64,000 nt of DNA from contig WION01000223.1 in NCBI GenBank assembly GCA_015039365.1, positions 23,853 through 87,852 of the forward strand. The letters run 5' to 3'. The translations under genes were made by a program, and so were the position numbers. This document shows, piece by piece, positions 1 through 62,398 of this stretch. This DNA comes from Amanita rubescens (Eukaryota; Basidiomycota; Agaricomycetes; Agaricales; Amanitaceae). Below the pieces are notes generated by a model, which did not search any database, had not been told where the DNA came from, and worked only from the letters and a program-made list of their open reading frames with translations. How positions within the stretch are numbered: the stretch's first letter is position 1; every line of letters starts with the position of its first letter.

Positions 1-3000
1 TTCAACACAAAATTGAATGTGTAATACTTACTCGCTGTTGGTGATAGGAAAAGATGTGATGTGACTGTCTTTCACAAAAATGAGCAATATCACTCACTCC
101 CTGTTGGCCATAGGAAAAGTGTGATGACTTTCACAAAAATGAGCAATATCACTCACTCGCTGTTGGTCATATGGAAAGATGTGATGAGAAGGCCTTCACA
201 AAAAGGTACAATATTGCTCACTCCCTGTTGGTCATACAAAAAGATGTGATGACTGCTAGGAGACTCCCCTTCACAAAAATGTGCAATCTCACTCACAAGC
301 TGTTTGTCATACATAGGAAAAGATGTGATAACTCAACTGCCTTACACAAAAATGTGCAATGCCACTCACAGCCTGTTGGTGATAGGGAAAGATGTGATAA
401 GGCTGACTGTCTTTCACAGGATGTGCATTGAATTTCACTCACTCTCTGTTGGTCATAGGAAAGGATGTGGTGTTTGAACTGCCTGCCATCATGAAAATAT
501 GCAATGTCACTCACAACCTGTTGGTCATATGGAAAGATGTGATGAGACTGCCATTCACAAAAATGTGCAACTGTCACTCACAGCCTGTTGTTCATGCAAA
601 AGATGCAATGAGACCATTGCCTTTCAAAAAAATGTGCAATGTCACACACCCGCTGTGAAAAGATGTGATGAGGCTGCCTTTGACAAAAATGCACATTCAC
701 TCACTCCCTGTTGATCAGAGGAAGAGATGTGATGAGGCTGTCTTTCACAAAAATGTGCAATGTCACTCACTGCCTGTTGGTCATAGGAAAAGAAGTGACA
801 AAACTGTTGCCTTTTACAACAATGCAGAATGTCATGATGACTCACCCCCTGTTGGTCAGAGGAAAAGATGTGATGAGACTGCCTTTCACAAAAGTTTGCA
901 ATGTCACTTACTTGCTGTTGGTCAGAGGAAAAGATGTGATGAGGCTACCTTTCACAAAAATGTGCAAAGTGCTACCCACAAGCTATTAGTGATGGGAAAA
1001 GAAGTGATGAGACTGCCTTTCATAAACATGTGCAGTCTCACTCACAAACTGTTGGTCATAGAAAAGGGTGTGATGAGACTGCTTTTCACAAAAACTTTGT
1101 GCAATGTCACTCACTGGCTGTTGGTCATAAGAAAACATGTGATGAGATTGCCTTTCACAAAAATGTTCAATGTCACTCACTTGCTGTTGGTCATAGGAAA
1201 AGAAGTGATGAAACTACCTTTCACAAAAATGGCAATGTCACTCACAAGCTGTTGGTCATAGGAAAAGATGTGATGAGACTGCCTTCTGCCTTTCACAAAA
1301 TGTGCAATGTCACTCACTCCCTGTTGGTCATAAGAAAACATGTGATGAGATTGCCTTTCACAAAAATGTTCAATGTCACTCACAAGCTGTTGATCATAGG
1401 AAAAGAAGTGATGAGACTGTCATTCACAAAATTGGGCATGTCACTCACTCCCTGTTGGTCATAGGAAAAGATGTGATGAAACTGGCTGTCACAAAAATTG
1501 CAATGTCACTCACTTCCTGTTGGTCATAGAAAGATGTGTGGATGAGACTGCCTTCTGCCTTTCACAAAATGTGCAATGTCACTCACTTGCTGTTGGTCAT
1601 AGGAAAGGATGTGATGAGACTGCCTTCTGCCTTTCACAAAATGTGCAATGTCACTCACTTGCTGTTGGTCATAGGAAAAGATGAGACTGCCTTCCATAAA
1701 ATGTGAAATGTGAGGCACTGACTTGCTGTTGGTCATAAGATGTGATGACACTGTCTTTGACAAAAATGTGCAATGTTACTCACAGCCTGTTGGTCATAAG
1801 AGAATTGCTATTACAAAAAGGGGGAACATCACCCACAAGCTGTTGGTCATAGGAAAAGATGTGATGAGACTGCCTTTCACAAAAATGTGCAATGTTGCTC
1901 ACTTCCTGTTGGTTGTAATAGTAAGACATGTGATGCAACTGGCTATTGCAAAATCAGACAATGTCACCCACAAGCTGTTAGTCATAGGAAAAGATGTGAT
2001 GAGACTGCCTTTCACAAAATATGCAATGTCACTCACTGGCTGTTGGTCATTAAAAGATGTGATGAGACTATCTGTCACAAAATTGGGCAATGTCACTCAC
2101 TTCCTGTTGGTTATAGGAAAAGATGTGATCTGACTGGCTATCACAAAAAGATGCAACTTTGTCACCCACAACCTATTGGTCATAGAAAAAGATGTTATCT
2201 GACTGCCTTTCACAAAAATTTGCAATGTCACCCACAAGCTGTTGGTCATGGGAAAAGAAGTGATGAGACTGCCTTTCACAAAAAAGGGTAATATCACTCA
2301 CTCCCTGTTAGTCACAGATAAAGATGTCATGAAACTGCCTTTCAACACAAATGTGTGCAATACAACTCACAGGCTGTTGGTCATAGGAAAAGAGATGATG
2401 GCCTTTCACAAAAATGTGTATTGACACTCACTGACTGTTAGTCATAAGAAAAGATGTGATGAGACTGTGCATGCCTTTCACAAACATAGGTAATGTCACT
2501 CACAAGCTGTTGATCACAAGAAAAGATGTGATGAGACCACCTTTCACAGAATTGTGCAATATCACTGACATACTGTTGGTTATAGGAAATGATGTGGTGA
2601 GACTGCCTTTCACAAAAATGTCCAATGGCACTCACTCCCTGTTGGTCATAAGAATGGGTGTGATGAGATTGCCTGTAACAAAATGCGCCATGTCACTCAC
2701 TCCCTGCCATTGGTCATAAGAAAACATTTGATGAGAGTCCCATTCACAACAATATGCAATGTTACTCACTCCCTGTTCATCATAGGAAAAGATGTGATGA
2801 GAGTGCCTTTCACAAAAATGTGCAATGTCACTCACTCCCTGATTATCATAGGAAAAGATGTGATGGGAAGACTGGCTTTCACAAAACTTTGTGATGTCAC
2901 TCACATGCTGTTGGTCATAGGAAAAGATGTCACTGTGAGACTGTCTTTCACAAAAATGTGCAATGTCACCCACAACCTGTTGGTCATAGGAAACATGTGA

Positions 3001-4533
3001 TAAAACTGCCTTTAACTAAAATGTGCAATGCCACTCACAAACTGTTGGTCATAGGGAAAGATGTGGTGAGACTGCTTTTCACAAAAATGTGTAATGTCCA
3101 CCCACTCCCTGTCAGTCATAGGAAAAGATGTGATAGACTGCTTTAAAAATGTGCAAGATCACTGACATTCTGTTGGTCATAGGAAAAGATGTGATAAGAC
3201 TATATTTCACCAAAATGTGCAATGTTGCTCACAAACTGTTGGTCACAGGAAAGGATGTGATGAGACTGCCTTCCCTAAAAATCTGCAATGTCACTCACAA
3301 GCTGTTGGTCACAGGAAAAGATGTGATGAGACTGCCTCATTCAAAAAAAGTGTGCAACTTGAATATCACTCACTCTCTGTTGGTCATAGAAAATATGTAA
3401 TGAAACTGCGTTCACAAAAATATGGAATGTAATTTACCAACTTTCAGTTGTAGGGAAAGGTGTGATGAGACTGCCTTTCAAAAAATGCAGTGTCACTCAC
3501 AATCTGTGGGTCATAGGAAAAGGTGTGATGAGACTGCCTTTCACAAAAATGTGTACTGTCACTCACAACCTGTTGTCACAGGACAAGATGTGATGAGACT
3601 ACCTTTCACAAAAAGGTGCAATGTCTCTCACTTGCTGTTGGTTATAGGAAAAGAAGTGATGAGACTGCCTTTCACAAAAATGTGCAGTATCACTCACTCC
3701 AGCCTGTTGGTCATAGGTGTGATGAGAATTCCTTTCACAAAATGTGCATTGTCACTCACTCTAGGCTGTTGGTTATAGGAAAAGATGTGATGAGACTGCC
3801 TTTCTCAAGAATGTGCAATGTCACTTGCTGTCTGCTGGTCATAAGAAAATATGTGCTCAGACTACCTTCCACAAAAATGTGCAATGTCTCTCACTGGCTG
3901 TTTGTCATAAGAAAGGATGTGATGAGACTACCTTTCTCAAGAATGTGCAATGTCACTCACGCTCTGTAGGTCCTAAGAAAAGATGTGCTCAGACTACCTT
4001 CCACAAAAATGTGCAATGTCTCTCACTCGCTGTTTGTCATATGTAAGAAAGGATGTGATGAGACTACCTTTGATACAAATGTACAATGTCACTCACTTCC
4101 TGTTGGACATTAAGGCAAGATATGACGAGAATGCCTTTCACAACATGTGCAATCACTCACAAGCTGTTGGTTATAAGACTGCCTTTCACAAATATGTGCA
4201 ATGTCACTCACTCCCTTTTGGTCATAGGAAAATATGTAATGAGACTGCCTTTTGATGTCACTCACCCCCTGTTGATCATAGGACAAGATGAGATGATACT
4301 GCATTCCACAAAAATGTCCAATGTCACTCACTCCCTGTTGGTCAGAGGAAAACATGTGTGAGATTGCCTTCACCCAAATCTTTAATTTCACTTACACGCT
4401 GTCAGTCATGGGGAAAAATCCATAAGACAGCTTTTGAGACAAATTGTGATGTTACTCACAAACTATTGGCCACAAGCAAACAATTGATAAGGTCACCTTC
4501 TGAATGGCTCAACCAACATGACATGCTGCTAAC
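1..4533 (-). repeat. Distal homogenised minisatellite = tandem array of intron plus single-codon cassettes
   Basis: About 68 units of 51-75 bp. The minus-strand consensus holds a pyrimidine-rich stretch (TCTTTTCCT), then GACCAACAG, then a variable triplet, then GTGAGTGACATTG. Triplets by lowest coordinate, first stretch: 4460 TTT, 4396 CGT, 4332 GGA, 4266 GGG, 4212 GGA, 4161 CTT, 4097 GAA, 4027 CGA, 3961 AGC, 3895 CCA, 3829 ACA, 3760 CCT-AGA, 3698 GCT-GGA, 3632 CAA, 3567 GTT, 3501 ATT, 3438 TTG, 3374 AGA, 3299 CTT, 3233 TTT, 3167 AAT, 3106 GGA, 3039 TTT, 2974 GTT, 2905 CAT, 2836 GGA, 2770 GGA, 2701 GGA, 2636 GGA, 2570 TAT, 2504 CTT, 2432 TCA, 2371 CCT, 2302 GGA. Second stretch: 2236 CTT, 2170 GTT, 2101 GAA, 2037 CCA, 1972 CTT, 1903 GAA, 1837 CTT, 1784 GCT, 1723 CAA, 1659 CAA, 1587 CAA, 1514 GAA, 1449 GGA, 1384 CTT, 1318 GGA, 1246 CTT, 1181 CAA, 1115 CCA, 1046 TTT, 980 CTT, 912 CAA, 846 GGG, 771 GCA, 705 GGA, 650 CGG, 582 GCT, 515 GTT, 443 AGA, 370 GCT, 297 CTT, 222 GGA, 157 CGA, 98 GGA, 32 CGA. 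The triplet varies far more than its flanks. The array continues beyond position 1. Confidence 0.85.
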
Positions 4534-6856
4534 CTCCTATATTTATAGGAAACCATGTGATGTCACTGCTTTTCACAAAGGCTTCAATATCACTTACAAT
4601 CTGTAGAATACATAATGTGTCCAAATTGCCTTGCAGCAGAGTGGCCAATATCACTCACTTCCTTTTGAAATAAAATTAGTACATTGCATCAGGAAACAGG
4701 AATCAATGCCACTGACTCTCTTTTGCCATAGCATTTCATATGATGGATTAACACCTCACAAAAAGTATCACATACATTCTGTTGGTTTTGCAGTTCCATG
4801 TGAAGAGGCTTTGAAAAGGAGAAATATTTACTGTCTGTTGTTTTGGGACAAGATGCAATCTTTATAAGCAGACATGAAGGAAGTGTCACTTACCTCCTGT
4901 TATTACACAAATGACATTTTGTGAGGCTCTCCTTTGGATAAAAGCATGTTACAGACTTTCTGTTGTTCATTGAATTATATCTGATGAACTGCACAAACAT
5001 CATCAATGTTACTTACTTTCTTTAACTGGGTCAGATGTGGTGTGAGATACTGTTGTATTACTCACTCCCTGTCCATGAGAAACTGCATTGACAAGCCTGC
5101 TTGTAACCATAGATTTACTCACTTTCTGTTGGTCATATGATGCACCATGGGATAATTTACCAAAAATCAAATTGAGTGATGTCACCCACTGCCTGTGGAT
5201 CATGAGACAAGACCACTGATCACAAAAGGAAGCATTACTCACAAACTGTTGTCATGAGACAATATATCAGATCTATGTTAGTTCACCCTTACCCACTGTT
5301 ATTGATATCATTAAATCCTGCCACCAAACATATGGTGACAACTAACCTGTGTTTCACTCAGTTGTTTATTGGCCACCTGAAGCATGACTAATCTTGTTTT
5401 AATGTGAAGGAATTTGAGTGTTACTCACCTCCTGATGAATGTTTTGCAAAGTATTACCATTCCATACGAAGGCCACCTACCTTCCTGTCCACCTATCACC
5501 ATTTAATTTTCCTATGCTGATGAGCAGCTTGACAAAAATGCATACCCAGAAATGTGGAAATTTTGTAAATACTATGACAGTGACATCATTCCATGACAAA
5601 GTTGGTTGGAATAAGGCCTGGTACAGAACATGTCTGAACAATGTCAATGTTAGTAAGTGACATTTTTGAGTGTGACCCTCACTGAAGTGCAGATTTAACA
5701 CAAAGGTCCAGATTATTCATCTGTGTTGAAACAAACAGCTCATGCATGATGTCATCATCTATTGCATCAGCAGTTTTCTGAGTTAATTCAGCACAATTCT
5801 TCTCTGGTAAATCCATGTCTATGAAACAACATCACTCCCATTTTCAGGAAGAAATCCTCATCATTCTCACCTTCCAATTGCACATATGCCCTAGGAGGGT
5901 ATTTGGCATTCAAAAATTTAGGAAGATAAACTTTCTGAAAAGTGATATCAGCATTTTCCCTGGCTGTCTCCCACTTATCTTCATCCTTTGCATCAGTCAA
6001 GTTGATAAATTCACTGGCTATTTGACCATCAAACTTAGTAAATATAACCACCAAAGGAACTGTAAAGGAAATATTGACTAGTCAGTTCACTGTAGATTAG
6101 TACTTAAGTAGATTTTGGCCAATGGAAATGTGGTAAAACAATTCCTCCAACATGAACAAGATGAGATGTAAATTCATTAGGACCAACCTCTGCCTGTCCC
6201 TTTATTGAAAAATTCAAGTTCTGCCTGTAAAATGGGACGAGGGCTGTCCATGGGTATGCAGTACCTACAGGGATCTACATATGTCAACCAGTCATGTAAA
6301 GGAATAAATCAGATATGTACCAAATTGCATGCAACTGATTTTTCAGCTCAGTTTCTGCAGACTTCTTTTCAATGAAATTCCAAGCAACCTCCAATTCATC
6401 AGCAGAACCAGATTCAAATCCCTGAGAGTCATGGAAAATAAAGTTACTCTCAGGGTATGTAATTTGATGTTCAATATCATGTAGGCCTCTCTGTTATTAA
6501 TGCATGTAAGTGGGCACATGATACATCCATACATTATCATTAAATGCACCTCAATTGATGGCATCAGATGTGTTGCAGATGCTTCCAGTTCTTTGCCTAC
6601 AGGAAACTCAATATGCAGAAGAAGCACAATGTTCAGCCTGACTTACCATCCTCATCATATATTGTGGGCTTTGTTCCCTTTGCTACACCACAAATCTTCT
6701 CAAGGATGGTTGTCTTGCCTGCATTAGCCCTCCCTATGACAAGGATACGAAAATGTGGGCATAGGTATTGTTCCCTGAGTATTTTAACATGTGTCTCATC
6801 TGTACCTGATGTATACCAGTCAGATAATGGGAATACCAAGACATCATATTGGATCA
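1..6856 (-). CDS. G-domain P-loop GTPase with a microexon-encoded tail (partial gene, 3' end off the left edge)
   Basis: The body reads continuously through seven exons: 6647-6856, 6550-6596, 6321-6490, 6188-6264, 5871-6059, 5683-5818 and 5546-5633. All have GT-AG borders and the phases add up, with no stop or frameshift. GTPase motifs are clear: P-loop VIGRANAGKTT, G3-like FHDSQG and G4 VIFTKFDG. The family is a large uncharacterised Agaricomycete group of MMR_HSR1/AIG1-like GTPases whose partner and pathway are unknown. The body exon ends in phase 0 after FPHFW (5546). In-frame exons continue as VDRK (5481-5492), GAG (5429-5431), a 30 nt exon (5347-5376), then single codons down to position 32. 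The exon at 6856 begins with TG and needs one base from an upstream exon, so the start codon is unresolved (a candidate ATG lies near 6890). Seen directly: motifs, phases, splice borders. Inferred: that the tail is spliced and translated. Confidence 0.72.
4534..5492 (-). other. Proximal, diverged part of the microexon array (17 microexons)
   Basis: On the minus strand each unit shows AG, then a tiny exon, then a 5' splice site such as GTGAGT, GTAAGT, GTTAGT or GTATGT. Exons by lowest coordinate in gene order: 5481 (12 nt, VDRK), 5429 GAG, 5347 (30 nt, open, ends SETQ), 5293 TGG, 5243 TTT, 5190 GCA, 5123 AAA, 5066 GGA, 5017 AAA, 4957 AAA (weak GTCTGT donor), 4894 GAG, 4832 ACA, 4776 AAT, 4717 AGA (GTCAGT donor), 4659 GAA, 4598 ATT, 4534 GAG. 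Introns are 46-64 nt and mostly unlike one another outside the splice sites, so these are not recent satellite copies. Every exon length is a multiple of three and none is a stop codon. This is the strongest evidence that the geometry is functional rather than an accident of repeat copying. Confidence 0.75.
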
Positions 6857-31467: not shown

Positions 31468-33860
31468 TGTTATAGAGCGAGCGATGGTTCGAGTTCAAAA
31501 TTGGGGAAAGATGCTTGCCTGAGGAACGAAGGCAAAATTCAAGCCTCTTTATCTTTTCAACAACGCCGTTGACTCCGGGGACGTGGGCGGCGACTCCTGG
31601 CCCTCTCGTTTGAGAAATAAGTATCCGCAGTCGCAAGGAGGGACTATGTATTACACTCACTGTGGCATCGGAGGAGCCTATATTCGCAACAAGAGGATGT
31701 TACACTGCCGTCATGAAATAAAGTTTAGTTATATGACTACAGCGCCATGCCATTGAACAATGTGCGCGTACTAAGGTCGACCGGGCAAGGTTCAATGTAT
31801 AGTAACCTTGGTATAGTAGCAGGCCAATACTTCCGGTCAGCCGTTCTCCGAGTATTAGACTGGATCCTTTTTCAACAATTTGTTCCGCGACTACAGGAGC
31901 ATAAACAAAAAATATCTTTCAGTTCGGAAATGACTGTTGTTACAAGTCCACCTCTTACTCGAGAAGGAAGTGTTTTATTCCGTTAGTATTTCGGCTCTTT
32001 TCAGCGATCCGAAAACCTCCCGGCCTGCAATGGGAATAAGCATTGAACATTCCTATTCATGGTTGCGGTAGGCTACACGGTGTCGGCCCATGCAGGTGTT
32101 GGCTCGTCGAGTCATTCTCTGTAGTTCGGCATGCCCATGATGAACCATCTGCGGGCGTGGATCAAATCCAAATAGCACGCGTTCATCGGGATGGCCTCTG
32201 CCAGAGCAGCGTTAGGCAAACTTGTACCTGGACTGCGGGTTTGGGCATGCTGGGAGAGTCGAAAAAGCATCGGAGTTGCGACCGCTGACGACTACGAGGT
32301 GACAAATCGCGCGCAGCCTAGGCATCGTGGGACCGGCGGGGAAGGGAGACATGAACTCAGAACGAGGCAGTTCCGGCAGACTAGAAGAGATTTGAGATCT
32401 GAGAGGCAGAGTCGTTCCGTAGTCGGGGCAAATGTTCGACGATCGGATGCGATTCCGCTGATGACAAAATACCATTACAAGGATGGAAGAGCAGAAGACC
32501 CATATCAAGGATTTAGTCTTGTCGCGGAGCGAACGTCGGAAAGAGGCATGATGAATCTATGATGTTTGGTGCACACGCCGCGTATCAAACCTCATAAGCC
32601 CGCCAAAGTCGTTTCCACCGCTCTCTATCCTTCGTCCCCCTGAAAACGCGGGCAGCCGGGTATTTCGACAAACGTGAAGGGTACCTCCTCGTATCACCTA
32701 CTCGTGAACCTTGAATTTGAAGCTATGCCTGTGTGGTGGAGTCATATGGGTGACTATTACTGTACGACTCTGTATGTGGTAACAACGTCATTTCATGATT
32801 GCATGCAAGGTCGCGGCCCTGAGACATCGCCCTCTACACACGCGGAAGCAAATGAACGCCGCGAAGCCCTTTCTATTCAACCTGATGATCTTTGAATTTC
32901 AATAGGATTCCGATGGTAGCATTTCGCGTGACTTGCTAGAAGATAACCGGTGTTGCACTATGAGAGGCTACGAAACTTTTACGTCGCCACAGGAAAAGAT
33001 GGGCACTATGGTTATAACTCGGAGGGAGCCATCCACATACATACCCTTACGACTACCCAACCACATCCTGGCATACATCGCCTTCTCAGCCATGCAGCGC
33101 GGCGAATGCGACGAGGGTAGAAGTTGCGGATTGCCCTCTTGAGGCCACAGCCGAGTCCGGCCTCAAGTTCTCTTCCTTCCCTTCGCGAGTAAATGTCCCT
33201 TCGAGCGGACCGAAATGCTGTTCTTATTCTCTACATGACTCGTTGGTCGACTCCGCAGATCTTGATTCCCATGTTGAACACGCGTCTGCATAGCGCCACT
33301 CTGAGACAAGGATCACGTTGACACCAATGACGACGAGGAGACGAAGGAGAATGGTAGTGGTAGTTTTCACGTTAGTGCAATTTTTCTTCGGGGGCACACT
33401 GCAGCAGTGGGTGACGTGGACATGTTGTTACCAGTTAGTGGGAGGAAAGCCACCTTGCTACGACTGGCCGCGGAGGCAAATAGCGATGCACGGTGACCGG
33501 TTGGACCAACTAAGTGTTAAAGTAAATGAGGAGTAAGACGGACGCGTTTTGGTTTTCTGTATGTATTATCACCGAGATCCTTGTCACCATTTCCGTCATA
33601 GGCTTCACGACCATTCGCGGCATTGCTTAACAATCTCTTCCTCGTTCCTTCGCTGGCAGCGTCAACGAGCGTCGTGGCAGCGAATACCACGACAAGCTTC
33701 TGCATTTTCAGCACAGCAGTCCGAACGTTGTTCCGAATCCAGACGTGGCTCCAGAGCCCGCAGAACGTTAGGTGCATCAGACAAACAAACGTCTCTGAGG
33801 ATCGTCTGTTTGTTCTCGCTCCTCTTCCTCCTCCCGCCAACATCCATGAACGATAAGATC
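31468..33860. other. Gene-poor region with uncertain open frames
   Basis: No recognisable gene. Weak coding-like stretches: plus strand 33314-33514 (FHVSAIFLRGHTAAVGDVDM, then GRKATLLRLAAEANSDAR) and plus strand 32191-32562 (an Arg-rich frame). Neither has a clear start, splice chain or family. They may be decayed exons of an unknown gene. Confidence 0.35.
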
Positions 33861-35011
33861 CACGTGGCTTTGTGTTGCAGCAGATGCCACAACGACAAAC
33901 AACTCTCTCTCCGAACCGAAACACACCAATCCTCATAACCATACCATGGGCCAGTACTTCCAGCTTATCAACGTTGATCGCCGCGAAGCTCGCTCCATGG
34001 GCAAGCTTGGCGAAGCTATCTACAACTACGCAAATCTTCCCATACTGCAGTTGTTACTACGTCAAGAATCGCAAGATCCCACCATCGGTGCTTGGGCTGG
34101 CCATCGCATCATCACAGCTGGAGACCATATAGGGGAGTGTCCCGAAGGGATGCTTTCCGAGGCAGAACAAACCGAAGTCAATCACTTTGCAGATACTACT
34201 GGTCGTGGCGACGGGGCATTTTACTATTTTGCCTATAGAACATTCAAGGACGTTCCAGTCAGTCCCTCTGGAGGAAAACTGCCGAGCGAGCCGAACTTTG
34301 TTTTGCGTAACTTATCTATGCATGTCTATGTCCGGATCAACGATTTCGAGCGTATCTTGGGTGAGAAAATAAGCAACAAAGGGTTGAACCCCGATTGGGA
34401 ATATACCATGAACACGTTAATCCTGGTCAACACGTCTTGGTCGGACGACCCGAGTTGTAGCATCCATTGTTCTTCGGAGATAGTTCCCGGTCCGTGGGCG
34501 GGAAATCGGTTTGATGTAACACCGATCACGGAATTGGAGTCAGAGGGCGAGTTGTGGAAGGATGTTACCGAAGAGCAAGTTGAAAAAGTTTTCGAAATCG
34601 TAGAGGGGGAGTGTTGGTAAGTCAATGATGCTATGCCTTATATTTGATTTACCCCCAAGTTCAGCATGAATTTACGTCTGTGAAGAGGTGTTTTCAGTAA
34701 CTTGAACGTTTTCCATCTCCAAAGTTATTGTGTACGAATAGCATGGGTTTATCTTGTCGGTTGTTCAGAGTTTTTGATCACTTTAAATGAAATGTTGTTG
34801 AGTTCAAAAAAACAGCTTGAGATGGTATAATTGTACGCCGAAATTGGAATCAGTAAAAAGCATCGATGCCCACATGTCTCGTAATCCGTAATCCCCATAA
34901 TCCATAGGACTCCAAGTGGGCTGAAATAACTCCCTCAAAACCCGTACTCCCTTCCGACTCCCGGGTGTCAGCACTCAGCAACACACACGATGGTAACATT
35001 AACAAGCTGCT
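33861..35011 (+). repeat. Segmental duplication, copy 1 (WAGDRF-family gene plus flanks)
   Basis: Matches 42975-44186 in the same orientation, from the CACGTGGCT words before the gene to GATGGTAACATTAACAAG beyond it. Coding identity is very high; the 3' flanks carry several small indels (for example the extra TTCGGGAT in copy 2). The 5' leaders share ACACACCAATCCTCATAACC just before the ATG. Confidence 0.9.
33946..34620 (+). CDS. WAGDRF-family protein, copy 1 (Agaricomycete-specific, function unknown)
   Basis: A single exon of 224 residues starting MGQYFQLINVDRREA. Family hallmarks: MGKLGEAIYNYANLPIL, IGAWAGHRIITAGDHIGECP, VLRNLSMHVYVRINDFERI, LILVNTSWSDDPSC and PGPWAGNRFDVTPI. This family is greatly expanded in mushroom genomes and has no known activity. 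Compared with copy 2 (43079-43756) it lacks one Asp codon (QESQDPTIG against QDDPTIG) and has GRGDGAF for GRGSHGAF. All indels are multiples of three, so both copies appear to be under selection or are very young. I chose the ATG with the family N-terminus MGQYF. Confidence 0.85.
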   Translation: MGQYFQLINVDRREARSMGKLGEAIYNYANLPILQLLLRQESQDPTIGAWAGHRIITAGDHIGECPEGMLSEAEQTEVNHFADTTGRGDGAFYYFAYRTFKDVPVSPSGGKLPSEPNFVLRNLSMHVYVRINDFERILGEKISNKGLNPDWEYTMNTLILVNTSWSDDPSCSIHCSSEIVPGPWAGNRFDVTPITELESEGELWKDVTEEQVEKVFEIVEGECW

Positions 35012-36874
35012 GGCGGCGATCACGCCGATCAAAATAATCCTTCTCCGAATCGTGATCACATCCTCGATTTTCGGATCATGCAGAGAAAAACAGCCTTGGA
35101 TCTGTCAACGAGACTTAAGCTTGTCACTTGCGCACCGAATACTAATGTAGGCTAGCCTTTACTTGGAAAAGTTTATATCTGAATCCTTAGCGGTTTTCGC
35201 TTTCGCTGGATGTATAACAATTCTCCATTCAAGAAGTTTCAAGCAGCATGAACCTCTGCGGCGGCCCATCGACCGCTTAAAGGGGAAATTCGCTATTCTG
35301 GATGACGAACGGAAGATACGGTGAAACTCACTTAGTGGCAACATCAGACGTACGCGGCATAGCCACAAATTGAATTGAGAATTACTTGGCGGGAAAATCA
35401 AACGCACAGCGACACCTCAGACTGGTGGTTGTTCCCTGTAAATGCGACCCGGGGGCACCTCCATTTGGAATAGGCTCGGATAAGGACTGTCAACAACTTT
35501 AACAGTACGAATCGCACGCGGATATACGCTAGTCTTTAGTTGGAAATGCTTGCCGGAATCCGATCTGAGTTAGATTCTTTCGGCGTTCCTCCTATCCCGA
35601 GAGAACCATATCTTTCGTAAAACTCTAGTGTCCAAGTCCATAGATTGCCCCGATCCAAAATTAGAAAACGGAGAAGACATAGAGAGGAGACTTACGCACC
35701 TTTGCCAGCACCAGCTACGCCAACCTGAAGTTACGCCTCAAAAACGACTCTCTCCCACCTCTCCTTGCTCGTGTTGACAACAGATGGTGCTGAGCGTTGG
35801 CCGTACAACACCCCGGTCCCATTAAAGCGGACGTTGGATACAGTTCTGCTTGGACGCGTTGATCCTGCATGTAGGAGCGCCGAACGGTAAGCGGACTGAT
35901 GGCTTTACCTAGTTGGAATTGTGCGGCAGCTGAAAGTTGCACGGGTGTTGTGGTATTGAGGGCTGAGGGAGATTTGAAGCGTTCAGAGCGTTCACTTTGT
36001 CGTTTGAAGTGCCAGTGGGTTTGGGGTCATCCAATGAGCTGCAGAAACGGCGTGGGCTACGGATATTGAGCCATCTTCGCAAACGTCGTTGATCGGGCTG
36101 ATAGTGCAGTGACTTGATTTGGCGCTGAGTACGTTACGAGGTGAAGGTCGTCGATCTTCAAAAGATGACCGATGCGATCTTTCACCATGCGATTTTCACG
36201 TTCTTGGAGTACTTTTATGGGAGACAAAGGGCTCTGGGTCGCTTTTATCGATTTTTGCTGTTATATATAGGCTCGCGTGACAAGATCATCTCTACGTACA
36301 GCTTTGGGCCTCTCGTCGACCATGGAAATCGGTTGCTACACCTCAATTAAGATATTCTACGCTCTACACGAACATGGTTTGGCGAGTAAAGGAGCTATTT
36401 CTTGAAGAACATTTTACTCGTCGAGATATTCAAGATCTTTGTTATTCTTTTGGTTGACCGAATGCGGTGAATACAACAATGGTGGCGTTGGACGAGAAAA
36501 AGCGAGTAATTTGTGAGCTAGTGAACGGCGTGATAGAGAGGTCGCAAGACGCAGGTCTCGGGCCTGAGCAAACCAACATGTTGAAATGCGTAAAGGGAAA
36601 GGAAAAGAAAAACTGCAAGTTGCGGTCGAGGAAAAGGAGCCACAAGACATGTGTAGTATGTACATGACCGAAGAAAAGTATTGATGAATTTACGTTTGTT
36701 TCTAGTCTTCTCTGGTCTGCAAGCAACTTTTGTTAAAAACGTAGCGGGACTTGCGGCACCAGTGCCGCTCTCGGCGATTATTGATAAAGTGTGTGTTTGG
36801 GACCTGCACCATTAACGTTGTGCTATCTAGCGTCCTCGTCATTCTTCAATCGCACTCTTCGATCGTCGAAACCC
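34621..36874. other. Intergenic region with duplication flank and interspersed repeat pieces
   Basis: Holds the 3' part of the segmental duplication (to about 35011), then about 35040-35560 with words shared with 41830-42060: CCTTGGATCTGYCAACGA, AGGCTAGYCTTTACTTG and AGTACGAATCG. From 35560 to 36874 I see no supported exon. The kinase-like gene's promoter lies at the right end. Confidence 0.45.
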
Positions 36875-37966
36875 ATGTCAAACTCATCCGCTGATCAGTT
36901 CTTTGCGCCTGGTGGCATTCTCACCTTATTCTTGACAGTCGACCAAGCAGTCTTCGAGTGCAACGCCTACATTCTCAAGGCATTCGTTCCTTTCACAAAA
37001 AGCCAGGTCTTACTTGTTGAGTTGCAGCCTCGTATATGCGAAATACCATCCCCCATCATCATCAAGGTATACGACCCCCGCTTTATCAACGATCGTGAGC
37101 GACCATCACCCTCCTCCGAGATTCCCGACCGTCCTTGGTCGTTATCCCTTGAAATCGCAGCAGCTGAGCGCCGTAAAGCAATTGCCCTCAATGAGCGTCT
37201 CGATGATTACGACGAGCTGTGTTATGATGACTTTGACGAGTTGCTCTGGGAGGAATTCTTTTACAGGACCACTGAAGATGCGTTCAACTCGGAGCTAGCC
37301 GCATACTCGCGCTTACAAGACCTCCAGGGTGTAGGCATCCCTCGTTACTATGCCTCAGGAAATCTCGTTGTCGATGCGCGTCGTCCCATATCTCCTCATG
37401 TCCTCGCCATCGAGTATATCCCTGGTGAAAGTCTCAGCACAATCAATCCCAGCTCTGTTCCTCGCTCCTTGGCACGCTCCTTGATTACAACTGTGTGCTC
37501 ATTCCCGTCTTACGGCATCATTCACTGCGATCTCCATACAGACAATATTCTCTTCTCTCAGCAACTCTCGCGGGTTGTCGTCATTGACTTTGGACAATCA
37601 ATCCTGCGCGAAGACGAATCGGACTCTGAGTGGGAATTTGCAGTGCAAACGGAGAGAAATGAAGTCCTAGTGAAGTTGTTATTGCACAAAGCCGGGATCA
37701 GATATTTCGATCCATGTCTCCCGAAGATATTTCCCAATCCCCTCGGCGCGGATTACTGGAACTCGATGGTCAACACGCAAGGCCAGCGTTGGTGCATTCC
37801 CACAGAGGATTGGACGGGTCCTGGTGGGATCAGACTTGACGAACCCATAAGATGGAAGCTCAGGGACGATGTCGCTTCTTGGCTTGCTGCAAAGCAGGCA
37901 GGCTTGTTGACCGGCGTAGATCCCCCAAGACCTGGCTCACCTGACTATGTGCCAGTGATCCTATAA
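36875..37966 (+). CDS. Protein-kinase-like (PKL) fold protein
   Basis: One uninterrupted exon. I take MSNSSADQFFAPGG at 36875 as the start; an in-frame ATG at 36791 adds 28 residues of leader-like sequence. Kinase-like landmarks: IIIKVYDPRF (lysine strand), LAIEYIPGESL (hinge), GIIHCDLHTDNILF (catalytic loop with HCDLHxDN) and VVVIDFGQS (metal-binding DFG). The HxDLHxDN loop resembles aminoglycoside phosphotransferase and fungal kinase-like proteins more than classical Ser/Thr kinases. Length is about 363 residues. Substrate unknown; probably an active phosphotransferase since the Asp residues are present. Confidence 0.78.
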   Translation: MSNSSADQFFAPGGILTLFLTVDQAVFECNAYILKAFVPFTKSQVLLVELQPRICEIPSPIIIKVYDPRFINDRERPSPSSEIPDRPWSLSLEIAAAERRKAIALNERLDDYDELCYDDFDELLWEEFFYRTTEDAFNSELAAYSRLQDLQGVGIPRYYASGNLVVDARRPISPHVLAIEYIPGESLSTINPSSVPRSLARSLITTVCSFPSYGIIHCDLHTDNILFSQQLSRVVVIDFGQSILREDESDSEWEFAVQTERNEVLVKLLLHKAGIRYFDPCLPKIFPNPLGADYWNSMVNTQGQRWCIPTEDWTGPGGIRLDEPIRWKLRDDVASWLAAKQAGLLTGVDPPRPGSPDYVPVIL

Positions 37967-42807: not shown

Positions 42808-42974
42808 ATTACTCCATACCCTGTTTCTAAAATGTTGTACCTATATCGTGTGCGTTCGAATGTCCATCGACTGGTTTTTGTTGTGGATATTTCAAACCTA
42901 TGATCTACAGGCTTGTTGAAAAGAAAGTCAGAAGGACTCAGAACCTGAGTGAGAACATCATGTGACGCAAGATT

Positions 42975-44186
42975 CACGTGGCTGTGTACTTTTAAACGCA
43001 GATGTCACAACGAGTCAACGTTCAACGACAAACAACTCTTTCTCCAAACCGCAACACACCAATCCTCATAACCTTACCATGGGCCAGTACTTCCAGCTTA
43101 TCAACGTTGATCGCCGCGAAGCTCAACACATGGGCAAGCTTGGCGAAGCTATCTATAACTACGCAAATCTTCCCATACTGCAGTTGTTACTACGTCAAGA
43201 ATCGCAAGATGATCCCACCATCGGTGCTTGGGCTGGCCATCGCATCATCACAGCTGGAGACTATATGGGGGAGTGCCCTGAAGGAATGCTTTCCGAGGCA
43301 GAACAAGCCGAAGTCAATCACTTTGCAGATACTACTGGTCGCGGCAGCCACGGGGCATTTTACTATTTTGCCTATAGAACATTCAAGGACATTCCAGTCA
43401 GTCCCTCGAGAGGAAAACTGCCGCGCGAGCCGAACTTTGTTTTGCGTAACTTATCTATGCATGTTTATGTCCGGATCAACGATTTCGAGCGTATCTTGGG
43501 TGAGAAGATAAGCAACGAAGGGTTGGACCCCGATTTGGAATTTACCCTGAACATATTAATCCTGGTCAACACGTCTTGGTCGGACGACCCGAGTTGTAGC
43601 ATCAATTGTTCTTCGGAGATAGTTCCCGGTCCGTGGGCGGGAAATCGGTTTGACGTAACACCGATCGCGGAATTGGAGTCAGAGGGCGAGTTGTGGAAGG
43701 ATGTTACCGAAGAGCAAGTTGAAAGGATTTTCGAAATCGTAGAGGGGGAGTGTTGATGGTAAGTCAATCATGCTACGCCTTATATTTGATTTACCCCCCA
43801 AGCTCAGCATAGCATCTACGTCTGTGAAGAAGAGTTTTCAGTAACTTGAACGTTTTCCATCTCCAAAGGTGTTATTGTGTACGAATAGCTTCAATGACTT
43901 TATCTTGTCGGTTGTTCAGAGTTTTTGATCACTTTAAATGAAACGTTGTTGAGTTCGGAAAAAATGGTATAATTGTACACCCGAAATTGGAATCTGTAAG
44001 CAGTAAAAAGCATCTAATGCCCGTCGACCCCTCTTAGCCCATACGTCTCGTAACCCATACTCCCCCATAATCCATAGGACTTTCGGGATTCCAAGTGGGC
44101 TCCCTCAAAACCCGTACTCTCTTCTAACTCTCGGGTGTCGGCGCTCAGCAACACTATACACGATGGTAACATTAACAAGTTGCTGT
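42975..44186 (+). repeat. Segmental duplication, copy 2
   Basis: Same orientation as 33861-35011. It contains the second WAGDRF-family gene and ends at GATGGTAACATTAACAAG, just short of the lipin stop. Confidence 0.9.
43079..43756 (+). CDS. WAGDRF-family protein, copy 2
   Basis: A single exon starting MGQYFQLINVDRREAQHMGK, the close paralogue of 33946-34620. Motifs: IGAWAGHRIITAGDYMGECP, HGAFYYFAYRTFKDIPVSP, VLRNLSMHVYVRINDFERI, NTSWSDDPSCSINCSSE and PGPWAGNRFDVTPIAE. An upstream in-frame ATG at 42962 gives a leader unlike the family, so I use 43079. About a dozen amino acid changes separate the two copies, several radical (GLDPDLEFTLN against GLNPDWEYTMN). Function unknown. Confidence 0.85.
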   Translation: MGQYFQLINVDRREAQHMGKLGEAIYNYANLPILQLLLRQESQDDPTIGAWAGHRIITAGDYMGECPEGMLSEAEQAEVNHFADTTGRGSHGAFYYFAYRTFKDIPVSPSRGKLPREPNFVLRNLSMHVYVRINDFERILGEKISNEGLDPDLEFTLNILILVNTSWSDDPSCSINCSSEIVPGPWAGNRFDVTPIAELESEGELWKDVTEEQVERIFEIVEGEC

Positions 44187-51751: not shown

Positions 51752-52432
51752 TCAGAATATGTCTGCGAGGAGCATACGTGTCCGCTTTGCTTGCTCCTCG
51801 CTTACGTCCTTCCACGGGTTAGACTTCTTTTCCTTCTTGATATCCTTCTTGGCGACCTCCCAAGGCACGATATCAAACCTATCTCCCGCCCACGGTCCCA
51901 AAACCAGAGCATGACCATATTCCATGTTCACACTATCCGACGACCAAGTCATATTGGCCAACAACAGATCTCCAAAACCAAACGGTTCAACGAAAGGTCC
52001 TTTGAAATCTGGTTTTCCAGCGAGCACGTCGGCACGGACGTATAGGCGCTTGGAAAGGTTACGGAGAACCCACACCTTGTCCGCCCCATTAATCTTGGGC
52101 GGAGCAGACGTCGGAACGGGAATCTGGTCAAACGCGTCCCGCGCGAACCGGTAAAAATCCCGGCCACCTGTGTACTTCTCCACCTCTTGTTCCTCCTCGG
52201 AATTGAGCATGCCGTTGGGATACTCCTTCAAGCGGTCACCAGCACAAACCAACCGGTGGCCTGCCCATGCGCCAAGTCCGTCTGAACCATTCGATTTGGC
52301 TGGTTTCAATAATAAATAAACCAGTCCGGGTGGTGTGCTGCTGCACATGAGCTTAGATATGTTTCCGGACTCGGAAAGGCTTTGCCTTTTGTCGAGATTG
52401 AAAAGAGCGAATTGTTGGATTGGACTGGACAT
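51752..52432 (-). CDS. WAGDRF-family protein, third and diverged member
   Basis: A single exon of 226 residues starting MSSPIQQFALFNLDKRQSL. It shares the architecture of the 33946 and 43079 genes: GLGAWAGHRLVCAGDRLKEY, PNGMLNSEEEQEVEKY, VLRNLSKRLYVRADVL, LLANMTWSSDSVNMEYGHA, LGPWAGDRFDIVPWE and a WKDVSEEQAK end. Identity to the pair is low outside these blocks, so it is an older paralogue on the opposite strand. Function unknown. Confidence 0.83.
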   Translation of the reverse strand: MSSPIQQFALFNLDKRQSLSESGNISKLMCSSTPPGLVYLLLKPAKSNGSDGLGAWAGHRLVCAGDRLKEYPNGMLNSEEEQEVEKYTGGRDFYRFARDAFDQIPVPTSAPPKINGADKVWVLRNLSKRLYVRADVLAGKPDFKGPFVEPFGFGDLLLANMTWSSDSVNMEYGHALVLGPWAGDRFDIVPWEVAKKDIKKEKKSNPWKDVSEEQAKRTRMLLADIF

Positions 52433-52789
52433 GGTTTGAAAAAAAATCTGGGCTGAGCGAGTGACGGAGAAAAGATTGAGAAACTGGGTGACCCTTGGGA
52501 GTGGTCTCTGCCCATTTCAGCCAACGCTTCGGTTTGCGTAATATTTGCCGCAAGGGTCGATGATGCCACGTTATTATACGTACGTACAAAAGTATCCACT
52601 CTATTCAATCCGAGGAACTGGGCCTTCCCAGAGCTTCACACGATGAATGTGACCCATTTCTTTCCCTTCTACTCCCGAAACCTGAAACAAATTGCACGGT
52701 ACATCCTAAGTAGACTACAAGTAACCAATGGCGATGTATACGATACATATGTGTAAACGGACATAAATACTCCGTGATGTCCCTACGAT
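52433..52789. other. Intergenic region
   Basis: Promoter of the third WAGDRF-family gene and 3' flank of the formin gene. Nothing further recognised. Confidence 0.35.

Positions 52790-59139: not shown

Positions 59140-62398
<3,259 letters not shown>

Follow-up and report, generated by a model that had tools for sequence, protein, structure and literature searches.

The locus and its exons

The 64,000-nucleotide stretch of Amanita rubescens DNA analysed here (hereafter the window; GenBank assembly GCA_015039365.1, contig WION01000223.1, positions 23,853 to 87,852 of the forward strand) begins with the middle part of one GTPase gene, which lies on the minus strand. The main trait of this gene is a long chain of predicted exons of 3 nucleotides (nt), each contributing a single codon. 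Read on the minus strand, the chain is a succession of cassettes of splice acceptor, codon, and splice donor. Positions 1-5492 hold 81 exons of 3 nt, which are of microexon length (no more than about 30 nt), as well as two of 6 nt, one of 12 nt, and one of 30 nt, exactly the census of the original prediction, which was made from the DNA letters alone. When spliced, the gene is modelled with 100 exons, of which 86 are 3 nt long, and a frame open for 485 residues; the model begins at the P-loop exon, and the start codon and any earlier exon lie outside it. The features of the gene in the window, taken from the spliced model unless otherwise indicated, are the following:

6647..6803, minus strand: GTPase exon with the P-loop GRANAGKT (spliced model and sequence)
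6550..6596, minus strand: 47-nt GTPase exon
6321..6490, minus strand: 170-nt GTPase exon
6188..6264, minus strand: 77-nt GTPase exon
5871..6059, minus strand: 189-nt GTPase exon (FTKFDG), the probe used to count the family (spliced model and genome search)
5683..5818, minus strand: 136-nt GTPase exon
5546..5633, minus strand: final ordinary exon of the GTPase body, ending in FPHFW, phase 0
5481..5492, minus strand: VDRK exon, 12 nt
5429..5431, minus strand: one-codon exon no. 1 (GAG, E)
5347..5376, minus strand: VANKQLSETQ exon, 30 nt
4600..5295, minus strand: leader of one-codon exons W-F-A-K-G-K-K-E-T-N-R-E-I, with the final codon ATT at 4598-4600 (parse and paralogue comparison)
32..4536, minus strand: one-codon exon array with units of about 65 base pairs (bp), extending past base 1 to about -162 (Tandem Repeats Finder and spliced model)
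3760-3765 and 3698-3703, minus strand: the two 6-nt exons inside the array

The GTPase body ends in phase 0 at 5546, as had been predicted, and the array introns measure 46-72 nt, slightly less than the upper bound of the 46-74 nt claimed earlier. Near 3829 two readings of the exon are available, CAA followed by a GT donor and ACA followed by a GC donor, and neither introduces a stop. The leader is shared with paralogues, in which it reads W-F-E-Q-G-K-K-E-T-D-R-E-I. Tandem Repeats Finder reports a 66-bp tandem array at 26-4175. The commonest unit measures 65 bp; because this is not a multiple of three, an ordinary in-frame protein repeat is impossible. The array had been taken for the tail of the gene, but it is an insert, since conserved C-terminal exons come after it. 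Beyond base 1 of the window the array continues for about 160 nt and the gene for about 850-890 nt, through the exons AAA, ATT, HELFALFGDKQSNFKIR (51 nt), a 25-nt exon (AVDCQVLV) recognised through the protein P0121 and its relatives, and the C-terminal exon.

Splicing in paralogues

The evidence that such exons are joined comes from transcript-like proteins. The spliced protein of the window gene, used as a query, retrieves 712 proteins at E <= 0.001, and many of the best 120 are encoded on short JGI contigs; an alignment search returned 102 proteins, of which 27 were examined. P0189 and P0192 pointed to the paralogous loci C737 and C73. P0192, encoded on a 992-bp JGI contig, aligns to C73:64425-60701 across 57 exons, 52 of which are of one codon, and all 52 of these residues are identical over 3.7 kb of DNA, whereas 20 shuffles of the same residues give at most 17 identities (mean 14.1). 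Overall, 147 of 151 aligned residues agree, and the mismatches sit where an intron tail is retained, where a codon is split, and in the C-terminal part. The one-codon exons of this stretch of C73 are therefore joined in order and included in mRNA, as judged from a protein that a short contig encodes. The same splicing very probably occurs at C737, where P0189 matches 44 of 54 one-codon exons (shuffle maximum 22), and at C23, where P0063 matches 29 of 36 (shuffle maximum 12). These three paralogues support the earlier claim of consecutive phase-0 exons that encode one residue each.

Other proteins display the same order of segments. P0001 (386 residues, 1446-bp contig) runs from the GTPase through FPHLW and a leader ending in WFEKGKKESDREIEYDGG into an array-like segment. 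In P0127 a leader is followed by some 77 array-like residues and then, still in the same frame, by the C-terminal domain, and the array-like segments of P0127, P0121, and P0169 are all continuous in frame with that domain.

A contig of about 1 kb cannot contain 3.6-3.9 kb of genomic DNA, so the short contigs must be copies of RNA or intronless copies of DNA. An RNA origin is favoured because two of the proteins start with intron tails: the N-terminus of P0192 is the translated tail of the intron preceding its F exon, and that of P0138 (SHHIFSYDQQ) corresponds to the end of the 62-nt repeat intron in translation. A derivation from intronless retrocopies is unlikely in view of these tails and of the own-genome matches listed, none of which is a contiguous copy. 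For P0192 residues 7-66 against C73a in any frame, the longest run is 5 residues, and none of the 150 matches listed for P0189 begins before query residue 73. In P0192 and P0138 the tail of one array intron is retained and is followed by spliced codons; some intron retention thus occurs.

A family-wide architecture

The one-codon-exon architecture belongs to a family and not to a single gene. In the 75.7-Mb assembly that contains the window, a 63-nt array intron finds at least 405 matches, and the GTPase-exon and C-terminal probes find at least 150 each. Among the matches listed, 106 pairs of GTPase and C-terminal exons lie on one strand within 20 kb, separated by 2.3-17.2 kb (median 4.1 kb), that is, by at least 2.3 kb in 106/106 listed pairs; four gaps above 10 kb may be mispaired, and 44 listed GTPase matches have no partner. 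At nine loci the number of one-codon exons can be predicted from this gap (R2 0.99; the exon counts were put in manually after correction of obvious slips), and extrapolation over 102 pairs, leaving out the four above 10 kb, gives about 5,600 such exons. The number of genes is lower than the number of loci, because many loci occur twice or more, probably as haplotypes.

Arrays were parsed at 15 loci by dynamic programming, with a preference for exons of 3 nt that does not extend to further multiples of three and with a penalty on other lengths. Under this scheme 614 of 651 parsed exons are 3 nt long, and several of the remaining ones are parse slips in the leader. The parser demands a GT or GC donor and an AG acceptor, and splice-site conservation among units is therefore not used as evidence. 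No array was demonstrated on contigs C235, C168, C111, and C117.

Stop codons are depleted from the parsed triplets. The window locus has none in 83 (expected 2.9, P = 0.05, weak alone), in keeping with the original prediction. Thirteen array loci together have one stop in 581 triplets (expected 28.0), and 12 loci minus the first 15 triplets of each have none in 396 (expected 13.6, P about 1e-6). Because the units of one array copy each other, the triplets are less independent than these P values assume. The lone TGA, at C239, is probably a parse slip, as most paralogues have GAA at that position.

Codon and intron evolution

The arrays evolve under two regimes. In the first, represented by C73 and C737, the introns of the array do not repeat one another and codons diverge like introns. 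The C73 introns share a mean mutual identity of 0.42 (0.37 when shuffled), and the exon structure is that of the repeat arrays. The second, homogenised regime comprises C254, C257, C228, C13, C604, and C239, whose introns deviate by 0.1-0.9% per site from a 62-nt consensus; between units of the same group, codon sites differ by up to 0.5-0.7, position 1 of C13 by only 0.05. The 62-nt consensus is without a CG dinucleotide, though the commonest array codon is CGA.

Comparisons between homogenised loci give the same picture. Codon and intron sites differ at 9/171 (5.3%) and 9/3196 (0.28%) for C254/C769, at 54/145 (37%) and 23/2722 (0.84%) for C257/C228, and at 40/167 (24%) and 17/3197 (0.53%) for C254/C13. 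In C106 (L025)/C650 (L026), the sole difference is one base in a one-codon exon (CGG/CAG), with 0/1662 in the introns. For these four homogenised pairs the codon-to-intron ratio lies at 19-45 fold, with a single change behind one of the ratios (P = 0.048). For the window locus (C139) and its copy on C120, the values are 7/219 (3.2%) and 37/4384 (0.84%), or 3.8 fold. Variable positions that outpace the repeat frame, the mark of hypervariable repeat receptors, are thus found in the homogenised pairs and, to a smaller degree, at the window locus, and not in the C73 subfamily. The flanks of C106 and C650 are identical across 6,948 and 650 bp.

Codon replacements are often multi-base, such as CGA/ATC and CTA/GCA. 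The third base of the codons in the window array is mostly A or T (G 0.09 and C 0.01, compared with 0.20 and 0.14 in the GTPase body), perhaps because NAG would create a competing acceptor. Repeated blocks of codons in nine arrays clearly exceed those in shuffled arrays only at C228 (0/300) and C13 (0.013). Simple unequal crossing-over of several units is thus insufficient for most arrays, and block duplication as the source of array order is rejected for most of the nine. The codon variability may reflect selection for variety, targeted mutation, or the joint action of gene conversion, which would make the introns uniform, and selection, which would hold the codons.

The lengths of 2 and 4 nt in C13 (L023), C254 (L018), and C599 (L017) cluster in exons, not introns; at C13 they account for 5 of 48 exons, compared with one indel in 48 introns (P = 1e-6). 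They could stem from targeted mutation at variable triplets or from consensus error, neither being preferred.

The encoded protein

The body of the protein is a P-loop GTPase, with the G1 motif GRANAGKT in the sequence and a P0010 model that resembles GTPase structures. No Pfam sequence family exceeds its cut-off for the GTPase; the match to MMR_HSR1 (18.2 bits) falls under the threshold of 21.9. In a Foldseek search with the P0010 model, immunity-related GTPases (IRGs) lead the list. The TM-scores to IRG and dynamin-like structures are low, at 0.30-0.36 (query), with a root-mean-square deviation of about 7 Å. Septin and EngB G domains score almost as well, and other GTPases are close in Z. 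A structure search with the P0127 model gives no match at E <= 0.001. It is tentatively suggested, with somewhat less than even confidence, that the array provides a switch resembling dynamin or immunity GTPases with a variable insert for its surface or for recognition, for example of non-self.

Interpretation and alternatives

The best reading, which is highly probable, is that the one-codon exons are constitutively spliced and that, in a GTPase family that has expanded, they encode a variable insert. Its splicing part is well supported; the function of the insert and the cause of its codon diversity are drawn by inference. The pre-mRNA would consist of GTPase exons, dozens of phase-0 exons of 3 nt separated by introns of about 46-72 nt, and conserved C-terminal exons. 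The short introns would permit intron definition and would be excised one at a time, fusing the codons into a single frame. As each array exon is one phase-0 codon, a unit that is gained, lost, or skipped changes the protein by one residue without a frame shift, and arrays may have grown by tandem duplication of the intron-plus-codon unit. In one branch of the family, near-identical introns combined with codons that differ at most positions suggest that the segment is a hypervariable insert, which would be flanked by a helical leader and a helical C-terminal domain, both of them conserved.

Several observations weigh against this reading. Of the 14 transcript-like proteins subjected to spliced alignment against the retrieved array loci (P0001 and P0004 were left out), only 3 match an array; P0127, P0121, P0138, P0169, P0142, P0010, P0017, P0019, P0028, P0166, and P0190 gave no array match to these loci. 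The short-contig evidence consists of protein sequences and not of contig DNA. In the assembled C13, C254, and C599 arrays, seven exons of 2 or 4 nt disrupt the frame, and the paralogue comparisons pair units without established one-to-one descent. Exon and intron divergence are equal or nearly so in the C73 subfamily (0.080/0.082, 0.077/0.073, and 0.033/0.033; 1.0-1.1 fold) and in the leader (means of 0.101 and 0.104 over 55 pairs), so that no purifying selection is visible on those residues beyond the missing stops. The leader codons accordingly give no support to an argument for coding from conservation, and purifying selection on C73 codons is not seen. Lastly, no transcript of the window's own array is present among 217 candidate proteins at E <= 1. 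The case that this gene is spliced like its paralogues is thus one of homology, the open spliced frame, and the copy on C120.

The intron-like rate of the C73 and leader codons is also what would be expected if the peptide were spliced but neutral, a tolerated flexible spacer produced by runaway intron-plus-codon duplication and constrained only to lack stops. The very variable array length and the low confidence of the array in both structure models, where it is probably flexible, fit this explanation, which is a substantial but minority possibility. It leaves the 19-45-fold codon excess of the homogenised arrays unexplained, unless gene conversion homogenises introns and spares exons. Splicing might alternatively pick subsets of exons to make many proteins per gene, since exons of 3 and 6 nt can be skipped without a frame shift and introns are retained in P0192 and P0138; this is improbable, as P0192 contains all 52 one-codon exons of its stretch with none skipped. 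Equally improbable is that the window locus is a pseudogene or has its whole array spliced out while the paralogues are spliced as described. The missing transcript and the undefined gene start favour such a state, but the frame is open through 100 exons and the C120 copy retains an intact array with five codons changed, whole-unit differences, and no stops. A plain, unspliced minisatellite with chance splice-like motifs would account for the detection of a 65-66-bp array by Tandem Repeats Finder. It is extremely improbable and is rejected in light of the 65-bp period, the missing stops, the transcript-like proteins, and the non-repetitive introns of C73, where the exon structure is nevertheless alike.

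A more speculative and rather unlikely proposal is a diversity-generating system in which every residue of a recognition insert would be its own DNA cassette and the near-identical introns would act as homology arms and splice frames. Codons might then be swapped, gained, lost, or preferentially mutated singly, giving rise to many individualised receptors in one large family without the frame ever being broken.

Other open reading frames in the window

The open reading frames at 33850-34620 (+) and 42953-43756 (+) are near copies (MGQYFQLINVDRREA...), to which that at 51752-52516 (-) seems related; all three are about 254-267 residues long and have no Pfam match at E <= 0.01. The frame at 36788-37966 (+) has weak kinase-like Pfam matches (APH, OspG_kinase, RIO1, ABC1), and that at 61176-62090 (-) has the Pfam MCM N-terminal and OB domains.

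Relation to known systems and significance

TAL effectors and the WD40 repeats of fungal NLRs consist of near-identical repeats with few hypervariable positions, and the entire repeat is protein. In the Amanita array, by contrast, the repeat is an intron, and translation is confined to the variable codon.

Schistosome micro-exon genes (MEGs) each contain 10-20 short exons of 6-81 bp (3-81 in the abstract), which are separated by introns of 0.1-5 kb, and their products are secreted (PMC10526429). Like them, the Amanita gene is made mostly of very short exons, mainly multiples of three, and is overlooked by annotation; unlike them, it encodes a GTPase and has up to 86 exons of 3 nt and introns of about 46-72 nt, which places it outside the MEG type. 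Plants possess a 1-nt exon in Arabidopsis APC11 (PMC4674806) and microexons of 1-15 nt, and a rice transcript has two adjacent ones, with lengths of 5 and 12 nt (PMC8831610). They show that constitutive splicing is possible for exons of 1-3 nt, and intron definition with stepwise removal is proposed there, but the plant exons are isolated or two adjacent, whereas those of Amanita form chains of dozens. Aphid bicycle genes are likewise a fast-evolving family known by odd gene structure, but their proteins are unrelated and one-codon exons are not reported in the text consulted (PMC9168663). A 2024 paper, according to which functional microexons were previously undescribed in filamentous fungi, describes a single regulated microexon and not a chain (PMC11121469). 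In the open-licence full-text literature, which misses most subscription journals, no report of chains of one-codon exons and no paper combining Amanita with microexons was found. The chain-of-codons architecture is judged to be new; its building block, the microexon, is already known.

The family shows that a spliceosome is able to join one-codon exons faithfully by the dozen, one after another, and this puts to the test current ideas about how small an exon can be and about intron definition. Standard annotation misses protein segments of 30-90 residues in what may be 50 or more genes of one family; the A. rubescens model P0002 stops eight residues past FPHFW. The pairing of near-fixed introns with variable codons would constitute a new route for the diversification of proteins residue by residue.

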